Assembly (NCBI RefSeq): GCF_036492635.1
Contig: NZ_AP025305.1
Location: forward strand, 248,001-312,000
DNA from: Aureibacter tunicatorum
GTDB lineage: Bacteria > Bacteroidota > Bacteroidia > Cytophagales > Cyclobacteriaceae
Length of the DNA: 64,000 bases
Direction of reading: 5' to 3'
Position numbers and translations under genes: made by a program
The notes under the pieces: generated by a model
The model's input: the letters and a program-made list of their open reading frames with translations, nothing else
The model's database searches: none
Told to the model about the DNA's origin: nothing
In this document: positions 46,362 to 46,695 of the stretch, in pieces
Position numbering within the stretch: position 1 is the stretch's first letter
How the letters are laid out: every line of letters starts with the position of its first letter

Positions 46362-46468
46362 ATTTATAAAGAAGAGTGAAGAGACAGGCTCGATGAAACT
46401 CTAGCAACCTAATCACCACAGGTTAAGGTGCTAAATCCTGATCCAATAAATTTTTGGAGAATATAAAT
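46362..46468 (+). ncRNA. SAM-I (S-box) riboswitch upstream of metY
   Basis: The aptamer core words are present in order: CTCGATGAAACTCTAGCAACC and AAGGTGCTAAATCC. P1 is ATTTATA (46362-46368) with TATAAAT (46462-46468), P3 is AACCT/AGGTT, and P4 is TCCAA/TTGGA just before the 3' P1 strand. This is the SAM-I architecture known for methionine genes in Bacteroidota and Firmicutes. A short Cys/Met-rich reading frame starts 11 bases after it. Confidence 0.9.
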
Positions 46469-46478
46469 TAAAAAATTT

Positions 46479-46577
46479 ATGAAAAATTCAGTAAAACGCA
46501 CATCAGAATCATTCTTCATCATAGCTAATTGCTATAAGCAATATATGTGTTGTATGTGCATGCCTGCTATGGGTTGA
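46479..46577 (+). CDS. Putative Cys/Met-rich leader peptide between SAM riboswitch and metY
   Basis: ATG at 46479 to TGA at 46577, 32 residues. It begins MKNSVKRTSESFF and ends YMCCMCMPAMG: of the last ten residues, four are Met and three Cys, and another Cys is at 18. Codon runs such as ATG-TGT-TGT-ATG-TGC-ATG would stall ribosomes when Met or Cys is short, exactly the two amino acids tied to the downstream O-acetylhomoserine sulfhydrylase. GC-rich hairpin-prone segments follow (GGGTTGACCTGACCC at 46571-46585, GGCCAAAAGGCC at 46614-46625, ATCCTTA...TAAGGGAT at 46632-46660). It is interpreted as an attenuation leader acting after the riboswitch; function is inferred. Confidence 0.6.
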   Translation: MKNSVKRTSESFFIIANCYKQYMCCMCMPAMG

Positions 46578-46695
46578 CCTGACCCGTATTAATTAATCCT
46601 TTTATTATTTATTGGCCAAAAGGCCTTCGACATCCTTATCGATTATGATTTGGTAAGGGATCATTTTATTCTAAAAAAGTAAACTCAATATAATT

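Follow-up and report, generated by a model that had tools for sequence, protein, structure and literature searches.

A SAM-I riboswitch and, directly behind it, a short open reading frame ending in methionine and cysteine codons precede metY in the 64,000-nucleotide stretch of DNA analyzed here (the window), and the same pairing was found in many relatives of its organism. We interpret it as a two-input leader in which the SAM-I aptamer would read SAM and the Met/Cys-codon leader would read tRNA charging, a reading to which we give a probability of roughly 0.8. It had been proposed in an earlier note on this DNA, whose observation is confirmed here, and is now supported by comparison of sequences at the scale of the phylum. 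What the comparison supports well is that the leader is a conserved coding frame ending in Cys and Met and that its position is coupled to that of SAM-I; attenuation at the Met/Cys codons appears likely.

The metY leader of the window

The aptamer occupies positions 46361 to 46469 of the forward strand and matches the full SAM-I (S-box) model, Rfam RF00162, over positions 1 to 108 with 79 bits (E value of 6.4e-17), which passes the family's gathering threshold of 44.4. It is the sole SAM-I match in the 6.16-Mb genome, and the 3' strand of its P1 helix is ATAAATT (46463 to 46469). At gathering thresholds, the window contains this match and two tRNAs and no further Rfam family; the metY leader has one aptamer, not the two of a tandem riboswitch, and its second module is an ORF. 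The neighboring tRNA genes at 12287 to 12360 and 12398 to 12471 of the reverse strand form a tandem duplication, with an equal Rfam score of 59.7 and an identical printed sequence.

The leader peptide ORF begins 9 nt past the aptamer end and runs from 46479 to 46577 on the forward strand, with 32 codons and a TGA stop. It is identified by the open frame, by similarly spaced ORFs of this kind in relatives, and by the frame test described below. Its 32-aa translation is MKNSVKRTSESFFIIANCYKQYMCCMCMPAMG, and the last ten residues include four Met and three Cys, as the earlier note had claimed (C terminus, YMCCMCMPAMG). The putative regulatory codon cluster is ATG-TGT-TGT-ATG-TGC-ATG (46545 to 46562, forward strand), assigned from the sequence and from the Cys and Met of 97 leader tails; with this MCCMCM tail, the window has what is expected of a leader-peptide attenuator, namely, codons for the product of the pathway. 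The leader stop is followed by 118 nt, including one terminator-like stem, and then by the regulated gene, metY (O-acetylhomoserine sulfhydrylase; 46696 to 48021, forward strand), which matches TIGR01326 (OAH/OAS sulfhydrylase) with 685 bits against a cut-off of 495. The next gene on the same strand (48083 to 49156) resembles metX, coding for homoserine O-acetyltransferase, with TIGR01392 as its best match (326 bits, E value of 2.1e-97, below the cut-off of 500), and is possibly in the metY operon. In the gap between both genes (48022 to 48082), a long inverted repeat (AAGCAAGGCCTT ... AAGGTCTTGCTT) can be seen by eye, with no T run after it.

A peptide search with the 32-aa leader in 194 genomes returned, outside the window, only matches with an E value of 0.003 or weaker and 25 to 63% identity, which we took as chance. 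A pattern of four Cys codons gave 21 matches in the window's own genome, and in none of the 20 available as loci did an ATG open an ORF in phase with the TGY codons. The genomes searched included no second member of the window's genus, so the exact frame of the window had no close orthologue for comparison, and it is in the relatives that frame and tail were found to be conserved.

Leader frames beside SAM-I aptamers in the phylum

We compared 177 distinct SAM-I loci, the window included, after removing 7 duplicates from 184. Three sources contributed: 80 metY loci from named genomes (RF00162 upstream in 76); phylum-wide metY loci (30 loci, RF00162 upstream in 17 of the 20 tested); and SAM-I loci of relatives, 30 from the best-scoring end of a longer list plus 60 more. 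Genes were labeled by tblastn against references, with 58% identity to the MetY of the window as the minimum for metY; NCBIfam confirmed two of the loci labeled metH (L015 and L365). As a Cys-tailed leader we counted an ATG-started ORF of 10 to 80 codons that starts -8 to +40 nt from the aptamer end and whose last 15 residues include three or more Cys; of several candidates the one richest in Cys was chosen, also in the shuffles, and the rule misses some cases (L094 and L104).

Such a leader lies beside the aptamer in 90 of 121 metY loci, against 0.75 expected from dinucleotide shuffles, and when at least four Cys are required the numbers are 84 of 121 against 0.10. Elsewhere it was found at 4 of 15 loci of the metZ/metB type, at both ferredoxin operons (2/2), and at the single transporter (1/1), while none was seen at metH (0/32), metX (0/3), hom (0/2), or other (0/1) sites of the survey. 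The longest run of at least three TGY codons, picked regardless of frame, was in phase with the first ATG located 0 to 25 nt past the aptamer in 75 of 79 metY loci, with no stop between the ATG and the in-phase run in 74 of them (p of 5e-31); two further metY loci have a TGY run and no ATG in that interval. The earlier note had held that the codons are hard to explain by chance and had named lack of conservation in related genomes as one result that would undo its reading. Both the frequency at metY, compared with metH, and the agreement in frame go its way.

The leaders are 23 to 63 aa long, and in 84 of 97 the ATG stands 6 to 11 nt past the aptamer end. This order, hereafter SAM-first, occurs in loci of Hymenobacter, Pontibacter, Rufibacter, Chryseolinea, Splendidivirga, Pedobacter, Mucilaginibacter, and Sphingobacterium. 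By the leader rule, 31 of the 121 metY SAM-I loci have no Cys tail. Three Algoriphagus loci (L119, L122, and L136) have an ORF at the leader position with a tail free of any Cys, as does Persicobacter L065, whose MetY is the closest to that of the window (80%) among 80 loci. Six further metY loci of the phylum lie outside the 177, with SAM-I in four (L164, L167, L169, and L170). A fifth, L166, has a SAM-I/IV variant aptamer upstream (RF01725, 58.8 bits) and no SAM-I match. These five loci, tested later, have no Cys leader beside the aptamer, although in L167 one lies some 146 nt farther downstream; L165, L168, and L148 were read by regular expression only. At L132, a second SAM-I aptamer (552 to 663) lies about 1.5 kb upstream of the one adjacent to metY.

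In the 15-residue tails of the 97 leaders, 37.3% of residues are Cys, the selection criterion, compared with 0.8% elsewhere, and Met, which was not selected for, is enriched 8-fold (9.3% against 1.1%), with at least one Met in 76 of the 97 tails. Across 19 closely related and partly overlapping pairs, the amino acid was kept in 103 of 124 comparisons of tail Cys codons and 29 of 39 of tail Met codons, compared with 78 of 112 for other tail codons and 394 of 623 for body codons. A frame and a Cys/Met tail that are kept while the body drifts are expected of a codon sensor rather than of a working small protein. Cys-rich peptides can bind metals, and the ORF could in principle code for a functional small metal-binding protein ahead of metY; we regard this as very improbable, as length and body are poorly conserved, the position is tied to SAM-I, and the window peptide matches nothing in Pfam or NCBIfam. 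Hardly more credible is that the UGY repeats act as an RNA element, by pairing or protein binding, with an incidental reading frame. The 3' Cys codons of a nine-locus clade (L095, L085, L086, L083, L117, L114, L141, L138, and L073) do pair with a downstream CAGCAACA-like segment, but the agreement in frame, the mixed use of TGT and TGC (346 and 217 in the leaders), the Met enrichment, and the fixed ATG spacing all speak for translation.

A third alternative accepts translation and places the sensor in the nascent chain, with a Cys-rich end in the ribosome tunnel arresting in response to cysteine, sulfide, metal, or redox state and not to tRNA charging. The final residue is Cys in 63 of 97 leaders and the second last in 20 more, and Cys runs reach seven, as might be expected of such a peptide. 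Residues and spacing other than Cys and Met vary widely, however, in which the leaders are unlike known arrest peptides, and the Met enrichment, together with the layout of terminator and competing helix described below for the reversed order, fits codon stalling; we consider arrest improbable. Cys is the prevailing codon in most SAM-first relatives, and the window leader is unusually rich in Met, with an M/(M+C) of 0.50 that is reached by only 4 of the 97 leaders, its own included.

The genes behind the pair are mostly metY, with some metZ and several others. Two operons contain ferredoxin, O-succinylhomoserine sulfhydrylase (OSHS), a NirA/sulfite reductase-type protein, uroporphyrinogen-III methyltransferase (SUMT), and CysH, with a CysG N-terminal-type gene before CysH in one of them; these names are best matches, partly below the model cut-offs. 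A nitrite/sulfite reductase follows SAM-I and leader at L297, and a TonB-dependent receptor follows SAM-I and a Cys leader at L303 (1779 to 3014), a candidate importer of a sulfur compound. At L247/L324 (G026), SAM-I and a poly-Cys leader (SGCCCCCCN) precede an Na+/H+ antiporter-family transporter (PF03553), a candidate methionine or cysteine transporter. A search of 60 genomes of the window's family for four Cys codons followed by TAA gave 44 matches, 30 of them as loci; in 8 of the 30 the codons belong to an ORF started by ATG, in every case one of fewer than 100 codons, and 7 of these 8 have a SAM-I core 128 to 179 nt upstream, two of the 7 being already within the survey. Given these target genes, the pair marks steps able to serve both Cys and Met, and the metH sites examined have SAM-I without the leader.

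The reversed order and the structure of the RNA

A second arrangement, leader-first, has the order Met/Cys leader, terminator, SAM-I, metY. The pair is not found everywhere: in other families, 900 nt upstream of 40 metY loci was read and no Cys-tailed ORF was found in 31; three of these 31 belong to family f42, and there the leader surfaced only when 1.5 kb was read. This family is in the same phylum as the window's organism and in a different class. In 40 further genomes from outside the window's class, mostly picked from the family of the first leader-first loci (33 are in f42), metY is preceded by a SAM-I match in every case, with 39 of the 40 matches over the cut-off. In 36 of these genomes, including all 33 of f42, the aptamer itself has a Met/Cys leader ahead of it. 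By the same test, no genome of this set has a Met/Cys leader downstream of SAM-I. This recurrence strengthens the two-input reading. Examples of the peptides are MKLTNQYIAREMMCMCCYMRTLH and MKFSIRHTMCKPVCCKCMCMMMRT, and the leader of L364 (f42) has 8 residues only. These genomes contain 18 further SAM-I sites, each before a metH-like start (one checked by NCBIfam), and none of the 18 has such a leader on either side. A Flavo-1 search for placement of the leader-first family found none in 8 genomes and none in 14 controls either. L338 and L334 have a small gene between SAM-I and metY, which in L338 codes for a CoA-binding-domain protein (PF13380). The mean M/(M+C) of the tails is 0.46 in the 36 leader-first leaders and 0.21 in the 97 SAM-first ones; this higher Met share follows clades, and ancestry alone may account for it.

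In the leader-first group, the gap between leader and aptamer contains a hairpin of -10 kcal/mol or lower followed by at least five U in 30 of 33 distinct sequences (a count without shuffle control), starting 24 to 40 nt past the leader stop. The segment around the stop codon can pair with the 5' arm of this terminator better than 95% of shuffles (p of 0.05 or less) in 21 of 30. When 30 sequences are aligned, pairing in the terminator amounts to 93.9%; 16 cells have changes on both sides, and none of 500 shuffles attained the observed covariation score. Only two pairs show double changes, a number that 384 of 500 shuffles reached. The competing helix, with 86% pairing, does not covary more than shuffles do, in part owing to a register that varies from genus to genus.

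In SAM-first leaders, RNA of tail and gap is more folded than shuffles at 87 metY loci (mean z of -1.38, with +0.60 at the gene start; 3 of the 90 metY leaders, with gaps of 300 nt or more, were left out). A hairpin with a U tract (E of -11 or lower) occurs in 18 of 94 gaps against 34 of 376 shuffles, a mild enrichment, with 3 of 97 leaders left out for gaps above 350 nt. Pairing of Cys codons with downstream sequence at a p of 0.05 or less is seen in 17 of 97, hardly more than the 12 of 97 of an N-terminal control. Since canonical terminators are only slightly above chance in these gaps, Rho termination or translational control may be used instead. The nine-locus clade mentioned above shares a conserved RNA, AGCAACA...TAGCGTACG...TACC-GAGTGAC-GGGTATGG, about 20 to 70 nt past the leader stop, with three predicted hairpins, the third having a GAGUGAC-type loop; Rfam scans of these loci name only SAM in that region.

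In the window, the earlier note had called the DNA between leader and metY hairpin prone. This holds for one terminator-like stem (46633 to 46659, forward strand), found by terminator scan and supported by predicted pairing probability, with 10 bp, of which only 3 are G-C, and a weak U tract, ATCATTTTAT; 0.3 such stems would be expected. It does not hold for the gap as a whole, which folds no better than shuffles (z of -0.29, or -1.49 with the leader tail). A partition-function scan suggests a candidate antiterminator arm overlapping the leader stop (46575 to 46580, forward strand), which is predicted to pair with 46657 to 46663 when a ribosome is stalled on the last Cys/Met codons. For the putative terminator, the predicted pairing probability is 0.92 on ribosome-free RNA and 0.88 when the stop is occupied by a ribosome, and it stays at 0.88 to 0.93 except when the free RNA begins within 46572 to 46581, where it takes values of 0.73, 0.28, 0.41, and 0.65. 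With an assumed ribosome edge of 14 nt, these correspond to codons TGC46557 to GCT46566 near the A site, the lowest value to a ribosome near TGC46557/ATG46560; stalling on the first two Cys codons leaves the terminator at 0.88 in the model. The alternate states that the earlier note had suggested looking for thus find modest support in the dip from 0.88 to 0.28, weakened by the shuffles of the upstream part, of which 4 of 100 showed the high-low-high shape and 26 of 100 passed when only a dip to 0.30 was asked for.

Mechanism, related systems, and significance

In the model that we propose, the first input would be SAM, read by the aptamer, and the second would be how far Cys and Met tRNAs are charged, to which a ribosome would respond on the C-terminal Met/Cys codons of the short leader. 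A ribosome stalled on these codons would keep the downstream hairpin from ending transcription, and a ribosome that finishes the leader, or the lack of one, would let the hairpin terminate. With only about 9 nt between aptamer and ATG, the SAM-first form leaves no room for a terminator there, so a SAM-stabilized P1 most likely blocks translation of the leader, and the attenuator would then stay closed; the aptamer would thus probably gate leader translation. P1 has a G+C content of 11% at metY leaders (90 loci), 43% at metH (32), and 25% at metZ/metB loci without leader (11). In the leader-first form, two regulators would act in series. Both orders would follow one logic, with expression confined to conditions of low SAM and scarce charged Cys/Met tRNA.

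The fullest version of this model, for which we see about even odds, is that the SAM-first riboswitch lacks a separate expression platform and has ribosome entry to the leader as its sole output, the leader reading Cys/Met tRNA charging, so that the RNA would form the AND of two starvation signals, and that the reversed order in another class performs the same logic in series. A possible, though less probable, arrangement is that leader and aptamer are uncoupled regulators on one transcript, the attenuator working by itself on its terminator and SAM-I acting elsewhere, for example, on metY translation. This would suit the leader-first group, where the modules are physically separate (mostly 92 to 116 nt between leader and aptamer), as well as loci with Met/Cys-rich ORFs and no SAM-I. 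A 900-nt upstream scan found five loci with a Cys ORF and no SAM-I, of which L161 and L163, where metY is preceded by ORFs extremely rich in both residues (MMQMCMMMCCC, Met and Cys), are clear and L162, L171, and L259 are weak; only the first two were counted as clear because so wide a scan gives chance-looking Cys ORFs (e.g., L263, L270, L284, and L287). L161 and L163 are the purest case for a Met/Cys codon sensor. Against uncoupled regulators stands the 6- to 11-nt ATG spacing of most SAM-first leaders, too short to hold an independent expression platform ahead of the ORF.

Leader-peptide transcription attenuators of the trp/his/ilv type are long-established regulators. Like these and like uORFC-8-2, a Cys-codon leader attenuator before cysS in Rhodobacterales (PMC8632094), the leaders described here are short ORFs with repeated codons for the amino acid of the pathway before hairpins, and in the leader-first group they also have a predicted terminator and a putative competing helix. 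They differ in involving two amino acids (Met and Cys), in belonging to another phylum, and in having SAM-I beside them in nearly all cases found here. Joint control of a methionine gene by a pair of sensors within a single leader is known from Bacillus clausii metE, where SAM-I and adenosylcobalamin riboswitches in tandem act independently on termination (PMC2258182); there, the second sensor is described as an aptamer and here it is a translated ORF. The Xanthomonas SAM-IXcc riboswitch, a SAM-I that binds uncharged initiator tRNA (PMC7270179), likewise brings SAM and a tRNA signal together in the control of a met operon, but its platform binds the tRNA directly and controls translation, and the abstract mentions no leader peptide or Cys input. 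SAM-I riboswitches with a ribosome-binding site in the P1 3' strand have also been described (PMC2258182) and resemble the present case in having the start codon just past P1, although the ORF they control is taken there to be the gene itself instead of a short leader. A SAM-II case with dual control has been reported (PMC9373788). Leader-peptide attenuation of amino acid operons was remarked on in Flavobacterium psychrophilum, in a passage naming neither Met/Cys leaders nor SAM-I (PMC9723704), and in 2010 the authors of a Firmicutes case stated that they knew of no earlier leader-peptide system outside Proteobacteria and Actinobacteria (PMC2965389).

A combination of SAM-I with a Met/Cys leader was not described among the top matches in titles and abstracts of the open-access literature, a body from which subscription papers are mostly missing, and priority is not proven by it. 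SAM-I and leader-peptide attenuation have each been long known.

Riboswitches and leader-peptide attenuators are usually seen as alternatives for the same genes, and here they are paired, in two orders and over a large part of a phylum. As the pair stands at genes feeding both Cys and Met and the metH sites examined have SAM-I without the leader, it offers a clear test of why cells would sense both SAM and tRNA charging. The RNA of the nine-locus clade is a useful model platform. The finding would extend leader control by Cys/Met codons to Bacteroidota and relatives, would assign a role to many unannotated small ORFs, and would provide natural two-input RNA parts.
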